A stretch of 22,095 nucleotides of DNA from a virus. Numbering within the stretch: position 1 is the stretch's first letter; every line of letters begins with the position of its first letter. The DNA is taken from positions 1 to 22,095 of the IMG/VR virus record IMGVR_UViG_3300030090_002627, one strand, 5' to 3'. The translations under genes were made by a program, and so were the position numbers. Shown here one piece after another: positions 1,632 through 11,323 of the stretch. The notes below the pieces were generated by a model. The model saw nothing but the letters and a program-made list of their open reading frames with translations, did no database searches and was not told where the DNA came from.

Positions 1632-2902
1632 TACTGAGTTGCAGGTTCGGTTAGTAAGACTTCGATGTTGTCTGACACTTCCCAAAGAGTTGCGTTTGTT
1701 GTTGTAGCAACTACAAATTCTTTAGTAGCAAAGTTTTGATCATGGCCAAATGTTCCGTACTGTATAGTTAATAAGCCCAAGTTTAAATTCTTAAGTTCGC
1801 AAGTTCCACCTTTCGTAACAATGTTAGAAAGAATTAGTTTGTTTACTTTAGGTGTTGTTGTTGCAGTATCAGTATCAAGCCACAGTCGGTCAAATCTAGA
1901 TCCAGTCGTAATTAATTCCTTAGCCATATCGTAACCACCTGATATTCTTAAATCACGCTGAGTACCTGCTGTTTGAGCAATAGACTGACCATCACTTATA
2001 TTATCGTTGATCACTATCTTGTGTGCCTTGACATTGGATACAGTTAAAGATTTGCAAGTTACTCTATCAAACATCAGTTCTCCTATGTCTATTCCGACTG
2101 TCTTTCCGTCAATCAATAAGGCTTCTGTCTTACCACTAGGAAGTGTTGAATTAGTGTAATTATTTATAGACACATCTGTTATTGAGATTGTTTCAACTGC
2201 CGTATTGCCTACTACAATTCTAAGTGTATTATCTGAGGGATTATCTTTTCTCCATGCCATTCTTTTTTCTAGTTCTTCATCAGGCAGTTCTCCTGGTGCT
2301 GAATAAATACCAGCATCACCATTAGAGAAACTTCTCTGTTCAATAACCTCTGCCACCCCAACTGCTGCTCCAGAAGCTGTACCTATTCCTAGTAGAGCTA
2401 TGGCAAGCTGCGGGGATAGTCCGAAGGATCTTAACAGAGAATATGGTGATTTCAAAACATTGAAAAATCTTCTCCACTTAGCGGACTCACTATTTAAATA
2501 TTCAATCTTTTCAAATAACCAATCCCTAAACTCTACAAGTTCTCTGTAAAGTGTTACTGGAGAATATAATAAAGCCCTAGGAGTAGCCTTAATTCCCTCA
2601 TACAACGACTTTAAGCTACGAATATGTATTGCGTATCCAAATAAAATTAAACTCGCTGATACAGCAATTCCGTACCAATAGTATGACTGTAGAAGTTCTA
2701 GGTACTCAACACCAATCGTATAACCAACAATCCCAAAAGGTGTTTTTATGGGAGTAATTGACCACCACAAATTAACTGGATTAGAAAGCGTAACTGCAAG
2801 ACCAATAGATCCTAAAGCTACAGTAATCATAGTTATTGTGGCTAATATATAACTGCCAATTTTTCTAAATGGTACATTAACTTTTAATTTTGGAATCTTC
2901 AT
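1631..2902 (-). CDS. Membrane-anchored protein with beta-solenoid-like C-terminal half
   Basis: This 423-aa protein was not recognised as a named family. Three hydrophobic stretches (about residues 16-40, 75-94 and 163-186) look like membrane spans, with a basic, amphipathic stretch between the second and third. Residues 190-423 are soluble and contain repeated short hydrophobic strands such as SLTVSNVKAHKIVI and KLILSNIV, suggesting a beta-helix or beta-solenoid. A GTG at 2944 in frame would add 14 residues but has no ribosome binding site. The ATG at 2902 overlaps the stop of the 33-aa gene as ATGA and has AGGAG 13 bases upstream. The gene follows two tiny membrane-protein genes, so it may act at the cell envelope in lysis, exclusion or late assembly. 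That role is inference only. Confidence 0.7.
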   Translation of the reverse strand: MKIPKLKVNVPFRKIGSYILATITMITVALGSIGLAVTLSNPVNLWWSITPIKTPFGIVGYTIGVEYLELLQSYYWYGIAVSASLILFGYAIHIRSLKSLYEGIKATPRALLYSPVTLYRELVEFRDWLFEKIEYLNSESAKWRRFFNVLKSPYSLLRSFGLSPQLAIALLGIGTASGAAVGVAEVIEQRSFSNGDAGIYSAPGELPDEELEKRMAWRKDNPSDNTLRIVVGNTAVETISITDVSINNYTNSTLPSGKTEALLIDGKTVGIDIGELMFDRVTCKSLTVSNVKAHKIVINDNISDGQSIAQTAGTQRDLRISGGYDMAKELITTGSRFDRLWLDTDTATTTPKVNKLILSNIVTKGGTCELKNLNLGLLTIQYGTFGHDQNFATKEFVVATTTNATLWEVSDNIEVLLTEPATQ

Positions 2903-3000
2903 CTTGCGTTCAATTCTCCTATAATTATCATTCCTGCTAAACACAGGCCAAGCAAAACACTTGAGGTTATTAATTTTTTTTTCGCTTTCTTTTTACTCAC
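2899..3000 (-). CDS. 33-aa single-span membrane peptide (holin-like size)
   Basis: This very short gene starts with GTG. Its product has a strongly basic N-terminus (MSKKKAKKK), one hydrophobic span (about residues 10-27) and a short tail ending GELNAR. Both ends support it as real: the GTG overlaps the stop of the 51-aa gene as GTGA, and its stop overlaps the ATG of the 423-aa gene as ATGA. Those junctions match the coupling seen through the whole operon. A run of nine A's codes for KKK. Size and topology would suit a pinholin-like or antiholin-like peptide or a phage membrane accessory peptide, but no family was recognised. Confidence 0.6.
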   Translation of the reverse strand: MSKKKAKKKLITSSVLLGLCLAGMIIIGELNAR

Positions 3001-3152
3001 TCTTCTGATTCTAACACTTTAAATCCCAATCCTATAATTCCTCCTACACATCCTGTAGCAATTTCATTATATTCATAAAAAATTCCTAGGCATGACAATA
3101 TACCTAGAACAATGATTGCTAAAAATATCTGTGGTCTTAGTTTTCCCATCAT
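2997..3152 (-). CDS. 51-aa two-span membrane protein, holin candidate
   Basis: The product opens MMGKLRPQIFLAIIV and has two hydrophobic segments, about residues 9-26 and 31-46, the second containing GCVGGIIGLGF. It ends in the acidic tail LESEE. Two membrane spans, a basic start and a length of about 50 residues fit small class II holins, and similar short proteins recur near tail genes in marine phages, from memory rather than a search. The first ATG (3152) overlaps the stop of the 41-aa gene as ATGA, and the second ATG follows directly at 3149. The gene overlaps the next one by four bases. No endolysin is visible beside it, so the lysis role remains unproven. Confidence 0.65.
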   Translation of the reverse strand: MMGKLRPQIFLAIIVLGILSCLGIFYEYNEIATGCVGGIIGLGFKVLESEE

Positions 3153-3274
3153 TTCTTTTTCTTCTTTCTAAGTTTCTTGAAGTCTGCACCTGTAATCTTG
3201 TTTCTTGGAGGTGCAACTCTAGCTATCTTCATCTGTGCTTTACTGTATTTCTTTTTACCTTTTGGTTTTGGCAT
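3149..3274 (-). CDS. 41-aa lysine-rich protein
   Basis: The product begins MPKPKGKKKYSKAQMKIARV and ends with five lysines. More than one third of its residues are lysine or arginine. GAGG lies five bases before the ATG. The stop overlaps the ATG of the two-span membrane gene (ATGA). The central APPRNKITGADFKKL segment is not low-complexity and looks conserved in kind with short proteins in other marine phages. Function is unknown; nucleic-acid binding is the simplest guess for such a charge, but nothing in the sequence proves it. Confidence 0.7.
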   Translation of the reverse strand: MPKPKGKKKYSKAQMKIARVAPPRNKITGADFKKLRKKKKK

Positions 3275-3280
3275 AGTTCC

Positions 3281-3556
3281 TCACTTTTTCTTTTTATGTT
3301 TCTTTGCAAAGTTTCTAGCAGATTCTTTACTACGAAATCCCCAAGCTCTAAGTGCAAGAGCTAACCTGGTAGGTCTACCTTTCTTGTCTTTCATAGGCCC
3401 TGCCATACCACCAAATCGTGCAGCAAAACTAACTCTCCTTGGTGATGTACCTTTCTTTAGTGGTCTCTTGAGGTTTGACCCCTCAGTCCTTTTAAAAAAT
3501 GCACGACCTGCTGCATTAAGACCACCTTTAGGATTTTGAAACTTCTTTCTTGGCAT
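3281..3556 (-). CDS. Small basic phage protein, DUF6321-like
   Basis: This 91-aa protein carries the pattern GGLNAAGRAFFKRTEGSNLK, followed by RRVSFAARFGGMAGPMKD and GRPTRLALALRAWGF. From memory this matches the phage family DUF6321. The last 18 residues are basic and end KKHKKKK. Its ATG shares one base with the stop of the preceding gene (TAATG), and an AGG arginine codon near the end of that gene supplies the likely ribosome binding site. Family members are usually reported beside phage structural genes, and their function is unknown. The family number could be confirmed by a profile search. Confidence 0.75.
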   Translation of the reverse strand: MPRKKFQNPKGGLNAAGRAFFKRTEGSNLKRPLKKGTSPRRVSFAARFGGMAGPMKDKKGRPTRLALALRAWGFRSKESARNFAKKHKKKK

Positions 3557-3807
3557 TATTTCTTCTTCCTCTTAGTTGTAGTTTTTTTCTTTTTACCACC
3601 TCTAAGAAGATCTGAATCAGCTTTTCTTGCACCACCTTTACCGCTTACGAAAGACTTTACTCTTCCCATAGCCCACTGGTGAGCTGAAACCTTTGGTCTA
3701 CTACCAGATGAATAGTATGCACCAAGTCCTCTTTTATATACCTTATCAAGAGTAGACTTAGAGAATCTGCTTGCACCTGATATGCTTTTATATCTTCCTG
3801 CTGCCAT
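3556..3807 (-). CDS. Small basic phage protein, DUF5824-like
   Basis: The 83-aa product contains DKVYKRGLGAYYSSGSRP (about residues 21-38), then HQWAMGRVKSFVSGKGGARK, and ends in a lysine/arginine tail KKKKTTTKRKKK. The core resembles a small domain found in many phage and some giant-virus proteins, recalled as DUF5824. Both ends are coupled to neighbours by one-base TAATG overlaps. The conserved GAYYSSGSRP motif and aromatic residues suggest a folded domain rather than only a charged peptide. Function is unknown, and the family number is given from memory. Confidence 0.7.
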   Translation of the reverse strand: MAAGRYKSISGASRFSKSTLDKVYKRGLGAYYSSGSRPKVSAHQWAMGRVKSFVSGKGGARKADSDLLRGGKKKKTTTKRKKK

Positions 3808-4013
3808 TATCCTCTACTCCTTTGTTTACTTATTTTGTCCATCATGGCCTTAGTAAGTTTGCCTTGTCGGTAGAGTCTTGCAGTTCTTTTGATCTCCGCT
3901 TCTCTAGCCTTAGGGTTCTTTGCACCCCTAACATACTTCTTTGGCACACCTCCCTTTGTCTTGGGAACTGATGCGAACTTTCGTTTTTTCTTTTTTTTAG
4001 TTTTACTTGCCAT
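3807..4013 (-). CDS. 68-aa lysine/arginine-rich protein (MASK start, type 1)
   Basis: The product starts MASKTKKKKKRKF, then VPKTKGGVPKKYVRGAKNP and a predicted helix of AREAEIKRTARLYRQGKL, ending SKQRSRG. It is strongly basic throughout. The start overlaps the end of the preceding gene by 11 bases in another frame, and the stop shares a base with the next start. The segment GGVPKKYVRGAKNPKAREAEI looks well structured and familiar from marine phage genomes, but I cannot name a function. It may bind DNA, RNA or acidic host surfaces. Confidence 0.7.
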   Translation of the reverse strand: MASKTKKKKKRKFASVPKTKGGVPKKYVRGAKNPKAREAEIKRTARLYRQGKLTKAMMDKISKQRSRG

Positions 4014-4224
4014 TACCTTTTAGTATACCTAATCCATTTTTTCCTGCTAATGTAAGCCACTCTTGAGGAGTAACCTTTCCATCTTCCAGTATATCTGCGA
4101 ATAGGTTTCCTATTCTTACAAGCTCTTCTTTCTCATCTACATTTTTAAGTGTAGCTAAGAAGAACTTTACGATATTCTTGTATGGTTGTGGCATCAAAGG
4201 TAACAAGGATGTAAATAGTTTCAT
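4003..4224 (-). CDS. 73-aa helical protein of unknown function
   Basis: Unlike its neighbours this product is not lysine-rich. It begins MKLFTSLLPLMPQPYKNIV, continues with an amphipathic helix FFLATLKNVDEKEELVRIG, and has DGKVTPQEWLTLAGKNGLG near the end. The DGKVTPQEW segment recalls an EF-hand-like or helix-turn-helix-like turn, but a full calcium loop is not evident. The start overlaps the stop of the preceding gene as ATGA. The end overlaps the next gene by 11 bases. No family was recognised. Confidence 0.65.
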   Translation of the reverse strand: MKLFTSLLPLMPQPYKNIVKFFLATLKNVDEKEELVRIGNLFADILEDGKVTPQEWLTLAGKNGLGILKGNGK

Positions 4225-4421
4225 CTTCCTACTGCTTTCTGCGATTGTTTATGGGCTGCTGTAAACGAAGTACCCTTAGACATTCTTTTCTTCATGTCTC
4301 TAAGATGCTTTGCTGTGTGGTGTTTGCCATGTTTTTTCATAGCAGTCTGTTGCCTGGGAGTAAGGCCCGTTAGACTAACACCTTTGACAGTAATACTTTT
4401 TTTCTTAGCTTTACTTGCCAT
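4221..4421 (-). CDS. 66-aa basic helical protein (MASK start, type 2)
   Basis: The product begins MASKAKKKSITVKGVSL, then TGLTPRQQTAMKKHGKHH, and continues with basic helices to SFTAAHKQSQKAVGR. The TGLTPRQQxAMxxHxxHHT stretch occurs in many small phage proteins (from memory) and is rich in histidine and lysine. The ATG follows directly after the stop of the nested 27-aa gene (TAAATG) and overlaps the end of the coiled-coil gene by 11 bases. The end overlaps the next start as ATGA. Its first 12 coding bases are identical to those of the gene at 4013. Function is unknown. Confidence 0.7.
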   Translation of the reverse strand: MASKAKKKSITVKGVSLTGLTPRQQTAMKKHGKHHTAKHLRDMKKRMSKGTSFTAAHKQSQKAVGR

Positions 4422-4614
4422 TTACTTCTTTTTCTTTTTTCTCATTCCGTTTTTCTTCTTCTTCATTCCCTTTCCCATTTTCTTTTTGGTTGTGTGGTAA
4501 GGCATTTTTTAGCTCCTTATTTTCTCTATCTAAATCCAAGACTTTCAGTTCTAACTCTGCTATTCTTTGATTTCTAGTTTGTATTAATGTTAATAAATCT
4601 TGTTCGGTATTCAT
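4411..4614 (-). CDS. 67-aa coiled-coil protein with overprinted tail
   Basis: The first 38 residues form a likely coiled coil (LLTLIQTRNQRIAELELKVL and onward, with heptad leucines). The tail after about residue 40 is a low-complexity mix of Glu, Lys and Asn. That tail is exactly the region also read in another frame by the 27-aa gene, so its composition may be a by-product of coding for lysines in the other frame. AAAGGAG lies just upstream of the ATG. The stop falls 11 bases inside the next gene. It could be a small spanin-like, chaperone-like or scaffold-like helix, but no signal sequence or lipobox is present and the function is unknown. Confidence 0.6.
   Translation of the reverse strand: MNTEQDLLTLIQTRNQRIAELELKVLDLDRENKELKNALPHNQKENGKGNEEEEKRNEKKEKEVNGK
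4422..4505 (-). CDS. 27-aa lysine-rich gene nested in another frame
   Basis: The product is MPYHTTKKKMGKG followed by MKKKKNGMRKKKKK. It lies wholly inside the 3' part of the coiled-coil gene (4411-4614) in a different reading frame. It has one of the best ribosome binding sites of the region, AAGGAG seven bases before the ATG. Its TAA stop abuts the next ATG (TAAATG), so it fits the coupled chain. The MPYHT start is familiar from tiny basic proteins in marine phages, from memory. Because it is so short, proof of expression would need ribosome profiling or mass spectrometry. Confidence 0.55.
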   Translation of the reverse strand: MPYHTTKKKMGKGMKKKKNGMRKKKKK

Positions 4615-4624
4615 TTATCTCCTT

Positions 4625-7494: not shown

Positions 7495-9986
7495 GTTGTT
7501 TTGACCTCCGTCATTTCTAATGTTATCAATCTTGTTTGATCTGGTGCAACCCCTCTTGTTGCATACACCCTGGAGGATGTCATAGCATCCTGATACTTAA
7601 GATTTACAAAATGTGATGATCCGTCTGGATCTTGTAGTTTTATAAAAGGCTCTTTTCTTAAAGTTTCTAATGTAGAAACATCTGTTGATAATACAGAACT
7701 AGACCTTACTCTTCTTAGTTGCATTGACCTTTTATCTGATAATTTAATAACTGCTGTCCATCTTCTGTAATCGATTGGATTCCATGCAGCGTGAAATACA
7801 AGTGAGTTTATTCTTGGTGATACCGCAATATCATCTGTTGTAAATACAAGCTTAAATCTAATTCTGTCAAAGTTAATCAATGCAGATGCAAAATCACCTA
7901 CAAGAGTTTGGCCTGTAGATGTAATTGTTCCGTCTCCAAATGTATTCCAACCTATATTGTCATTGTCCGTGTCATCGTCTACTTTATAAAATACTTGTAC
8001 ATTTTTACTTGCTGACAAGTTTGAGCCTGTAAGTGTTAGCTTTATCGCTGATTTATTTATGTCAGGATAGTTAAAGTTTACATAAGGTGTATAAAAATCC
8101 CCAGTAAGTCTGTGTTCAATTACAGAGTTAAGTGCAGGGTTTTCGTTTCTTATTGGCATCCTAATTCTAAAAGCTCTAGGCTCTCTATTATTACTGCTAT
8201 CAGTAGAATCATCGTTAATAAGATTACCAAGTACAAATAGGCTTGTTCTTTCCGAACCTTTGAATTTACCCATAGCGTTTATATCTGATACATCAAAACT
8301 TGCAATAGTATGAGGTACATCTTCTGATCGACTACCAGGTTCTTCTTGTTGTGTTCTTACAGATAGAAGTTTGACTGTTCTTGATAGGTTGGCTCCTGAG
8401 AAAGAATAAGGGAAAGTGTACGGGAAACCTGAACTCTCAGATGCTAAATCATCTGCTAGTGCGACAAAGAGGTTATTTCTATCTTGCGTTAGAGCTGTTA
8501 CTCTTCCACCGAATCCTCTGAACGCAGGAGCCTTAAATATATACGATAGATCTGTAAATACATAAGATCCATCAAAGTTTCCAACATCAATTCTAAAAAA
8601 TGCTTGGTCACCACCACCAGCAAATATTGCACCCGATCTACCTTGTGCAGATTTAAAGTTTGAATCGTCTGGAAAAAGGTTTGCTTCTGGTTGTAAATCA
8701 AGAAACTTGTTTGCACTTCTTGAATACTGAAAGAGACCATCTTCTCTTCCTACATACAACCTGTCATTAGCTGAAAATAAATTTGTAATGTCTCTATCTG
8801 AGTCACCACATTTGATTTCACTGCCAAAATTAGCAGTGTCTGATGGATCTGTTGATACGGATATTTGGTTTGCTCTGCTCTTAAATAGAGCTAAATCACC
8901 ACTGGCATTACGAGCTCTTGCAAAAAACTCAGCAAGTCTTCCGTTCCCACTGTTTGTAGAGGGATTTGACCATGTAGTGCCATCGGTGCTTCTTAAATAG
9001 TTTGCACTTGTACCTCTACCTGCATATAAAGCACCATCAAAACTTATTAAGTCTGTGATTGCGAAAGATCCGTCTACATATACTGCGTTCCATAATTCAT
9101 CTGTGTCATCCCATTTATAGATTGCTCTACCACAAGCTGCGTAAATATTACTGCTAAACTCTTGTGGTTCTGTCCATGTTGTGCCACCTTCTGGAAAAAA
9201 TGCTAAATCATCAATGGCAAAAACATCTCCACTTGTAGACAAAGTTATTCTTACTTTTAGACTTGATGCACTTCCGTTAACAGTTATGTTGGTTTGAGAT
9301 GCAGCAAAAGCTGATGTGCTTGTTATTTCATCACCTGATGCAGTAGCAGCAGAGTCTACAATCTGTATCTTTGCATTACCTGAACCAGATATTCTTCGTA
9401 AATATACATGAGCAAAAACTTTTTTACTTTGAAATAATGTCGGACTGTTTATAGTTTGCTCTATGTATCCACCATTTGCAGTCGCTGTTATCTGACCACC
9501 TCGGTTACCATTTTTTACATAAGTTGTTTGAGATGTAAGGGTAGCATTGTTAGTTGCATAATCTGTTAAATCAAAAGAACTATCACTTGCAACCTGTTCA
9601 AATCTTCCGTTTCTTATCAATATGTCAGTTTCATCTTGCAGGTATCCAAGTACAAGTTCACCTCTAAACATACCAAGAACACCATCTGAGTATCCGTACC
9701 TTGCTCTTGCCCTGTTTGCTTCTGTTGCAGTTCCGAACCTAGATATTGTTGATGCACCAAATCCTCTATGCCAAGAGTCTTGATCAAGAACCAATCCTAT
9801 GTCAGGAGATTGCTGCTGGTAGTTTGCTGAGTCGCTTACCTGTCTTGGAGGTGCAGGTGACACATGATCTATTCTCCATCCTCCAGGCACATTCGGTGCA
9901 TCTCTATATAGTTTGAGCCCTACTTTATTAGTAGAACCATCTGTTTTGCTTAATACAATATCTGAACTATACGGAGCTGTTGACAT
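7491..9986 (-). CDS. Tail (nozzle-like) protein with beta-propeller and carbohydrate-binding-like insert
   Basis: This 831-aa protein starts MSTAPYSSDIVLS with GGAGG six bases upstream. After about 120 residues, a jelly-roll-like segment (about 122-266) begins DILIRNGRFEQ and ends DVFAIDDLAFFPEGG, the usual frame of family 4/9-type carbohydrate-binding modules. Residues of about 268-530 contain repeats such as AIYKWDDTDELWN, LYAGRGTS and LYVGREDGLFQYS, typical of propeller blades. The C-terminal 250 residues are beta-rich. T7-like podoviruses have a tail nozzle (gp12) of similar length with a propeller, and this gene follows the adaptor-like gene as gp12 follows gp11, so a nozzle is likely. 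Homology by sequence is not evident. Confidence 0.65.
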   Translation of the reverse strand: MSTAPYSSDIVLSKTDGSTNKVGLKLYRDAPNVPGGWRIDHVSPAPPRQVSDSANYQQQSPDIGLVLDQDSWHRGFGASTISRFGTATEANRARARYGYSDGVLGMFRGELVLGYLQDETDILIRNGRFEQVASDSSFDLTDYATNNATLTSQTTYVKNGNRGGQITATANGGYIEQTINSPTLFQSKKVFAHVYLRRISGSGNAKIQIVDSAATASGDEITSTSAFAASQTNITVNGSASSLKVRITLSTSGDVFAIDDLAFFPEGGTTWTEPQEFSSNIYAACGRAIYKWDDTDELWNAVYVDGSFAITDLISFDGALYAGRGTSANYLRSTDGTTWSNPSTNSGNGRLAEFFARARNASGDLALFKSRANQISVSTDPSDTANFGSEIKCGDSDRDITNLFSANDRLYVGREDGLFQYSRSANKFLDLQPEANLFPDDSNFKSAQGRSGAIFAGGGDQAFFRIDVGNFDGSYVFTDLSYIFKAPAFRGFGGRVTALTQDRNNLFVALADDLASESSGFPYTFPYSFSGANLSRTVKLLSVRTQQEEPGSRSEDVPHTIASFDVSDINAMGKFKGSERTSLFVLGNLINDDSTDSSNNREPRAFRIRMPIRNENPALNSVIEHRLTGDFYTPYVNFNYPDINKSAIKLTLTGSNLSASKNVQVFYKVDDDTDNDNIGWNTFGDGTITSTGQTLVGDFASALINFDRIRFKLVFTTDDIAVSPRINSLVFHAAWNPIDYRRWTAVIKLSDKRSMQLRRVRSSSVLSTDVSTLETLRKEPFIKLQDPDGSSHFVNLKYQDAMTSSRVYATRGVAPDQTRLITLEMTEVKTT

Positions 9987-11323
9987 TAGTAACCTCCGTT
10001 AAGACTGCTTACAACACCTTTCTTCAAAGCTAAAGGTGCCATACCACCATGACCTTGGTTTACAAGGTTCTGAAAGTGTGTCTGTCTTCTCTGTGCAGCA
10101 TTTAAATCTGCTATGTCTAGTTGATCTATGTCTTGTTGAAACCACAATGCTGCTGCTTGATTTATTAATAATCTTGCTTGTTGTTGGTCTATTTCCATTG
10201 TGTCTGAGCCAGAGGACACGGAAGAAAGCAAACCCATTCCTCTGACATGCAGACTTCTATCACTATTAGAGATAGAACTTTTTATAACTATGGTGTCGCC
10301 TTCTTCTCTCCAGTCAAGCAAAGGAGCTCCAAGTAAACTAGGTACTTCACTTTGTCCTGCTGTTGCTACCATTTCGTCTGCATAGAAAACGAAAGCATCA
10401 GAGTCACTTGTTACATGAAGACCAACTTTTATACTTGTGTCTAAGTCTTTTGCATCTAGTGTGTGGGTAAGTCTTTCCCATCCACCTCCAGAGTGGGTAG
10501 TTCCTGTTGATATGGAATCTGAATCAATCTGTATTGCAGCAGATATTCTGCTTGCAGTTTTAGAATATACCCATATACCTACATTTATTTCTTCACCTTT
10601 GTAATTAGTTCCGCTAGGTACTGTAAGTAAAGCTGTGTTAACCGCACTTGCCTGTACTTGAAACTGTGCTGAATTAGAGCCCGCAAACACCATGTAGTTA
10701 TCTGGTGATGTAGTTTCTTGTTCTTGAGTAATACTTGTAAAGTTTGAGTTTACCCAGTCAGCAGGTGTAGTTGAGTCTGTCCATGTTTCAAAGTCACAGT
10801 TTAGTGTGTTTACAATATTGTTTCCGTAACTTTGAGCATCTATTCTTGACTCTTCATATATCTGTCTTACATATCCTGGTGCAATAGATGAAGGCCTTGC
10901 ATACTTGTTCTGTGTGTCTGCCAGGCATAAAGTTCTGTCGTTTATTTCTTTGTATAGTCTTGGAAATACATTGAACCTTGCATCATTAAGAGAATCTCTT
11001 AGTTGATCAGGGTCATATCTGTAAATCTCAAATGTAGCCTGTGTGCTGCTATCTGATGTCAAAGCAGTACCTGATACAGTGATTGTGCCAGAACTCGCTG
11101 TATAGTCCGTTACACGCCTTACAGTGTCATCATTGTTAGCACTTGTTATCTTTATAAATGTGTCATTTAGTGCATCATCATTGTTAAAACCAGAATCAGT
11201 AAGTTCCGTAGATACTACTGATGTGTTTGCTGCAATAGCAGTCGTAGTAGTAAAAGAACCAATAAAGGCTCCAATAGCTCTACCAAACTGTGGTAATAAA
11301 TTATCAAGTGTTGTTGTTGCCAC
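9986..11323 (-). CDS. Adaptor/neck-like structural protein with carbohydrate-binding-like insert
   Basis: The 445-aa product begins MATTTLDNLLPQFGRAIG. It has a beta region to about residue 100, then helices around DPDQLRDSLNDARFNVFPRL (104-123), an insert (about 172-322) resembling a carbohydrate-binding jelly roll (NCDFETWTDS to FVFYADEMVA), and a helical C-terminus with ALWFQQDIDQLDIADLNAAQ. The flanking helical parts suit a head-tail adaptor, and the position before the nozzle-like gene agrees. It starts with GTG, whose G is also the last base of the preceding TAG stop. The role is inferred from architecture and order, not from clear family identity. Confidence 0.6.
   Translation of the reverse strand: MATTTLDNLLPQFGRAIGAFIGSFTTTTAIAANTSVVSTELTDSGFNNDDALNDTFIKITSANNDDTVRRVTDYTASSGTITVSGTALTSDSSTQATFEIYRYDPDQLRDSLNDARFNVFPRLYKEINDRTLCLADTQNKYARPSSIAPGYVRQIYEESRIDAQSYGNNIVNTLNCDFETWTDSTTPADWVNSNFTSITQEQETTSPDNYMVFAGSNSAQFQVQASAVNTALLTVPSGTNYKGEEINVGIWVYSKTASRISAAIQIDSDSISTGTTHSGGGWERLTHTLDAKDLDTSIKVGLHVTSDSDAFVFYADEMVATAGQSEVPSLLGAPLLDWREEGDTIVIKSSISNSDRSLHVRGMGLLSSVSSGSDTMEIDQQQARLLINQAAALWFQQDIDQLDIADLNAAQRRQTHFQNLVNQGHGGMAPLALKKGVVSSLNGGY

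Follow-up and report, generated by a model that had tools for sequence, protein, structure and literature searches.

How a 27-codon lysine-rich reading frame comes to lie wholly inside another gene of a virus, and which of the two genes was there before the other, is the question raised by the locus described here. The window, by which we mean the whole stretch of 22,095 nucleotides analysed (positions 1 to 22,095 of the 30,393-base IMG/VR record IMGVR_UViG_3300030090_002627), belongs to a virus whose capsid protein is ~30% identical to the capsids of the pelagiphages HTVC026P, HTVC111P, HTVC112P and HTVC202P. An earlier note, made from the letters of the window, had taken the small gene to be overprinted on the tail of a coiled-coil gene. 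The comparison with relatives does not support that direction, since the peptide family extends well beyond the coiled-coil gene and has stand-alone members; we conclude, with a probability of roughly 0.8 for the joint claim and leaving function aside, that the peptide gene is real, is conserved, and has been overrun by the coiled-coil gene. The features concerned are as follows.

4411..4614, minus strand: 67-aa coiled-coil gene MNTEQDLLTLIQTRNQRIAELELKVLDLDRENKELKNALPHNQKENGKGNEEEEKRNEKKEKEVNGK, which encloses the peptide frame and whose tail lies over the peptide from residue 37
4619..4624, minus strand: Shine-Dalgarno AAGGAG of the coiled-coil gene, by reading of the sequence
4422..4505, minus strand: 27-aa lysine-rich peptide gene MPYHTTKKKMGKGMKKKKNGMRKKKKK, an ATG frame whose N-terminal motif and position are matched in other phages
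4513..4518, minus strand: Shine-Dalgarno AAGGAG of the peptide gene, 7 bases from its ATG and within the coiled-coil codons N-K-E-L
4221..4421, minus strand: 66-aa basic KHHTAKH...SFTxAHK gene, which in the phages read is the commonest gene downstream of the peptide
3556..3807, minus strand: basic DUF5824 protein, also of this block of small genes (Pfam PF19141, E 3.7e-12)
3281..3556, minus strand: basic DUF6321 protein, also of this block of small genes (Pfam PF19846, E 4.9e-24)

The layout given in the earlier note is borne out by the sequence: the ATG at 4505 opens a 27-codon frame inside 4411-4614 in another frame, both frames have a ribosome binding site, the peptide TAA (4424-4422) abuts the ATG (4421) of the gene at 4221..4421, and the tail of the enclosing gene does turn to Glu/Lys/Asn where the second frame begins. 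The coiled-coil frame ends 11 nt past the peptide stop, covering the first 11 bases of the downstream gene. The peptide would be started from its own Shine-Dalgarno sequence, itself spelled by coiled-coil codons, with the TAA-ATG junction as the probable means of coupling to the next gene. The surrounding region (2899-4614) holds a run of about eight small genes, mostly very basic and including the DUF6321 and DUF5824 proteins, several of which abut or overlap by 1-11 nt; these two proteins are, like the peptide, small and basic, and unlike it they are longer and have Pfam models.

The coiled-coil gene was found in 19 contigs, window included, and a wider scan for its relatives added 0 contigs. 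In all 19 a lysine-rich peptide lies under it, the overlap being 53-90 nt long and in one fixed phase (+1), and the overlapped peptides are of the types MPYHTT, MPGTMK, MPGMKK, MPGKMM and MPMGK; position and composition are the grounds for relating MPYHT to the MPG and MPMGK types. The peptide is fully nested in the window and in L002, L006, L046, L048, L058 and L221. In the same phase, such a peptide also lies partly under other upstream genes: an unrelated gene with a tail reading ..NALSHNKEEEKK overlaps it by 38 nt in L064, L071 and L072, and shorter overlaps occur in L008 (14 nt) and L010-L017 (8 nt). The peptide Shine-Dalgarno sequence retains its core, GGAG (GAGGAA in one), in all overlapped relatives, and the coiled-coil residues that spell it vary (KEL, QGE, KGA, EEL, QEV, EGA, EGE and KGE). 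Start and ribosome binding site are separate for the two frames of the overlapping pair and are conserved in relatives; both frames are probably translated. A slippery A_AAA_AAG heptamer is present in the peptide frame of 8 of 13 overlapped peptides, at varying places, and absent in the other 5; a programmed -1 frameshift product was rejected because the heptamer is not conserved.

Peptides of the form MPYHT[T/G]...KKKK are an unannotated, widespread family of marine phages that standard annotation has missed. Defined here by an N-terminal MPYHT and a lysine-rich remainder, with an overall length of ~18-50 aa, the family was found in more than 100 IMG/VR contigs by searches with the downstream gene and with DNA patterns, and a scan for MPYHTG matched at least 120 stretches. 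The window peptide has the motif, the lysine-rich remainder and a basic small gene directly downstream; in the phages read in detail a KHHTxKH...SFTxAHK gene is usually next after the peptide. Because the peptide is short and of low complexity, ordinary homology statistics are unsuitable for it. No model matched it in Pfam or PHROGs, Rfam gave no match, and tblastn against cultured phages returned no matches, probably owing to the low-complexity filter and the short query. Four genome-contig matches to MPYHTTKK were rejected as family members, not being lysine-rich peptides. No publication on this peptide or gene arrangement turned up in our literature searches.

Two cultured phages, to which the downstream gene and the capsid protein led, carry free-standing members in unannotated gaps of their records. 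In HTVC111P the peptide MPYHTGHGSKKKKKKKKNKMAKRKR (28828-28905, Shine-Dalgarno AGGAG) lies between the annotated lysozyme gp56 and gp57, and in HTVC026P the peptide gene occupies 30023-30106. Both resemble the window peptide in their MPYHT start, lysine-rich remainder and downstream basic small genes, and in HTVC111P the gene downstream of the peptide is a homologue of window 4221-4421; unlike it, they stand alone or overlap by 1 nt and lie outside any coiled-coil gene. Further stand-alone peptides occur in L061-L063, L066, L068 and L069. In another class of phages, represented by 75 distinct upstream sequences, the peptide follows a terminase-like gene where read (L094 and L138); a similar set of basic genes adjoins the terminase in both, and in L138 the peptide shares its block with a DUF6321-like and a KHH-type gene.

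Several further small-gene arrangements were seen in these contigs. By eye, relatives of three other basic genes of the window (a KxxAxVAPPRxKITGADFKKL type, a KHH-type and a DUF6321-like gene) are grouped at L138:1791-2332 (offsets 540-1081 from the peptide ATG), between the terminase-like gene and a long ORF, a grouping that suggests a co-inherited module. Directly 3' of the terminase-like gene (L094:1352-1432, L138:1251-1331 and similar contigs) lies a near-invariant 26-aa ORF, MPYHTGMKKKKKKKKGGKKR..CSCK, which has no Shine-Dalgarno sequence and has a recurring CCTAATTCTTACT ahead of its ATG. A second recurring basic motif, LTAKQKKLPMALQKAI(L/M)KK, either lies immediately 5' of the MPYHT peptide or is joined to the C-terminus of that peptide (HTVC026P, here L075, at 9932-10024; also L059, L070, L083 and L105).

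The comparison of synonymous constraint in homologues that the earlier note had proposed separates the two frames. Across six pairs of overlaps, which are only approximately independent and give small numbers, 35 differences fall 3/7/25 at peptide codon positions 1/2/3 (chi-square p 8e-6); 24 of the 35 are silent in the peptide, where 22% would be expected (p 5e-9), and 7 of the 35 are silent in the coiled-coil tail, where 26% would be expected (p 0.56). As read from these alignments, selection on the peptide frame within the overlap is shown, and the identity of the tail residues, with synonymous differences as frequent as expected, is not detectably constrained. That the coiled-coil gene is also coding is indicated by the part of it that is not overlapped, where 26 of 49 differences are synonymous and 23 are not. 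AlphaFold2 predicts a helix at residues 3-38 of its product with high pLDDT and a poorly defined tail (pLDDT 50-64).

The composition of the tail follows mainly from the phase. In the fixed phase of the overlap, the first base of each peptide codon is the second base of a coiled-coil codon, so that each coiled-coil codon consists of the third base of one peptide codon and the first two bases of its successor. Read in this way AAR-AAR gives AAA or GAA (Lys or Glu), and since runs of AAA and AAG are stop-free in that phase, a coiled-coil gene that enters them runs through and gains an E/K/N tail. ATG-A closes the other phase immediately, and this explains why a single phase is observed; in simulations the chance of that other phase staying open was 0 for every MPYHTT and MPG type under the coiled-coil gene. 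The use of AAG and AAA is about equal in the overlapped peptides, the other basic genes of the window and the stand-alone peptides, so the E/K/N composition is a by-product and reflects mainly the out-of-phase reading of lysine codons. We also rejected a preference for AAG as a means to an acidic coiled-coil tail, since AAG/AAA use is no different from that of basic genes that are not overlapped.

A weaker signal concerns the openness of the tail. Over the overlapped peptides the coiled-coil frame stays open for 53-95, compared with mostly 20-65 in 30 stand-alone peptides (p 5e-4; the controls exclude the window and the overlapped loci), only 2 of which have that frame open beyond the peptide stop. 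At non-stop sites, T at peptide position 3 (base 1 of the coiled-coil codon) occurs in 4 of 38 collapsed cases as against 98 of 225 in stand-alone peptides (p 5e-5). Because of shared ancestry both p-values are nominal only; together the comparisons suggest that the tail is maintained open and without T-first codons, and so still matters. Of the proposal that overlapping coding constrains the tail, the part concerning its residues and composition is not supported, the former not being detectably constrained and the latter being mainly mechanical, and a part concerning an open tail that avoids T-first codons survives on this weaker signal.

These observations can be set against the other ways of reading the locus. 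One would be that only the coiled-coil gene is real and that A-rich DNA yields the 27-aa frame by chance. A closed, shifted ATG frame of at least 27 codons indeed arises in 32% of random synonymous recodings of the 67-aa coiled-coil protein, and in 9.8% it comes with an SD-like core; frames of this length being so common, the window alone is weak evidence and the relatives decide. There the Shine-Dalgarno sequence, start, motif and peptide-frame substitution pattern are conserved and stand-alone homologues contradict the idea directly, which makes it very improbable; conservation in relatives, at the level of sequence, lifts the frame beyond chance. The version of the earlier note, a new 27-aa gene overprinted in the tail of an older coiled-coil gene and constraining that tail, agrees with two open frames that each have an SD site and with the avoidance of T-first codons even where they are not stops. 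We consider it distinctly unlikely, as the MPYHT peptide has a much broader distribution than the coiled-coil gene and for the most part occurs apart from it, and the synonymous excess lies in the peptide frame and not in the coiled-coil tail. Every coiled-coil homologue found overlaps a peptide, so the order of events is unreadable from the coiled-coil side; from the other side, a wide and mostly free-standing peptide and a narrowly distributed coiled-coil gene indicate that the peptide is likely the older. The most likely direction is therefore that the coiled-coil gene was extended over a peptide gene already in place.

Within this overrun of an older peptide gene, a sub-question compatible with it is whether, both genes being real, the coiled-coil tail over the peptide is a passive read-through and has no role of its own. 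The residues without detectable conservation, the unbiased AAG/AAA use and the low-confidence predicted fold speak for a passive tail, and the unusually long open frame and avoidance of T-first codons against it; we hold the passive tail to be possible, if somewhat doubtful. A different idea is that the pair is an embedded spanin pair of the Rz/Rz1 type. As in lambda Rz/Rz1, a small gene lies wholly or partly within a larger coiled-coil gene in another frame, and in HTVC111P a lysozyme adjoins the stand-alone peptide. Unlike Rz/Rz1, the window pair has no membrane anchor or lipoprotein: the peptide is poly-basic and lacks the signal sequence, lipobox and cysteine of spanins (PMC6139136), no cysteine being present in it or in the ten other overlapped relatives counted, and the coiled-coil N-terminus MNTEQDLLTLIQTRNQRIAELEL, by direct reading, has no hydrophobic stretch. 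A spanin pair is, accordingly, the least probable of the readings and can be set aside almost entirely.

With 14 Lys and Arg residues and no Asp or Glu among its 27 aa (4505..4422, minus strand), and with its place in a block of basic small genes near tail, lysis or terminase genes, the peptide might tentatively be supposed to bind nucleic acid, in packaging or in the virion. Comparison of individual contigs shows abrupt shifts of identity at the peptide ATG: L002 and L016 are 94% identical before it and 53%/55% after it, whereas the window and L002 go from 44% to 88%/97%, and L046 and L058 from 51% to 99%/97%. These shifts imply that the peptide and the genes downstream of it travel together as a block, the N-terminal coiled-coil half staying constant, and that each exchange also swaps the coiled-coil tail. 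It is conceivable, though rather unlikely, that the overlap serves functional dual coding, in which the coiled-coil protein and the peptide would be partners, the tail would be selected for openness and hydrophilicity, and peptide and tail would be swapped as a cassette at the peptide start; if so, one crossover would re-specify both proteins.

For spanins, an embedding route by loss of a stop codon and extension past the downstream gene has been proposed, and their genes occur in separated, overlapped and embedded arrangements, although all three were not found there within one spanin family (PMC6139136). The MPYHT family differs in that a single motif family shows all three, and its separate, partly overlapped and fully nested members therefore form a natural series for the origin of overlapping genes. 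The series illustrates how an upstream gene can run over a small gene whose codons chance to be stop-free in one phase, and it shows that a charged low-complexity tail can stem from the codons of a neighbour and need not be evidence on the protein that carries it. For marine phages, two cultured SAR11 phages among them, the peptide also adds an unannotated and widespread family of small genes.
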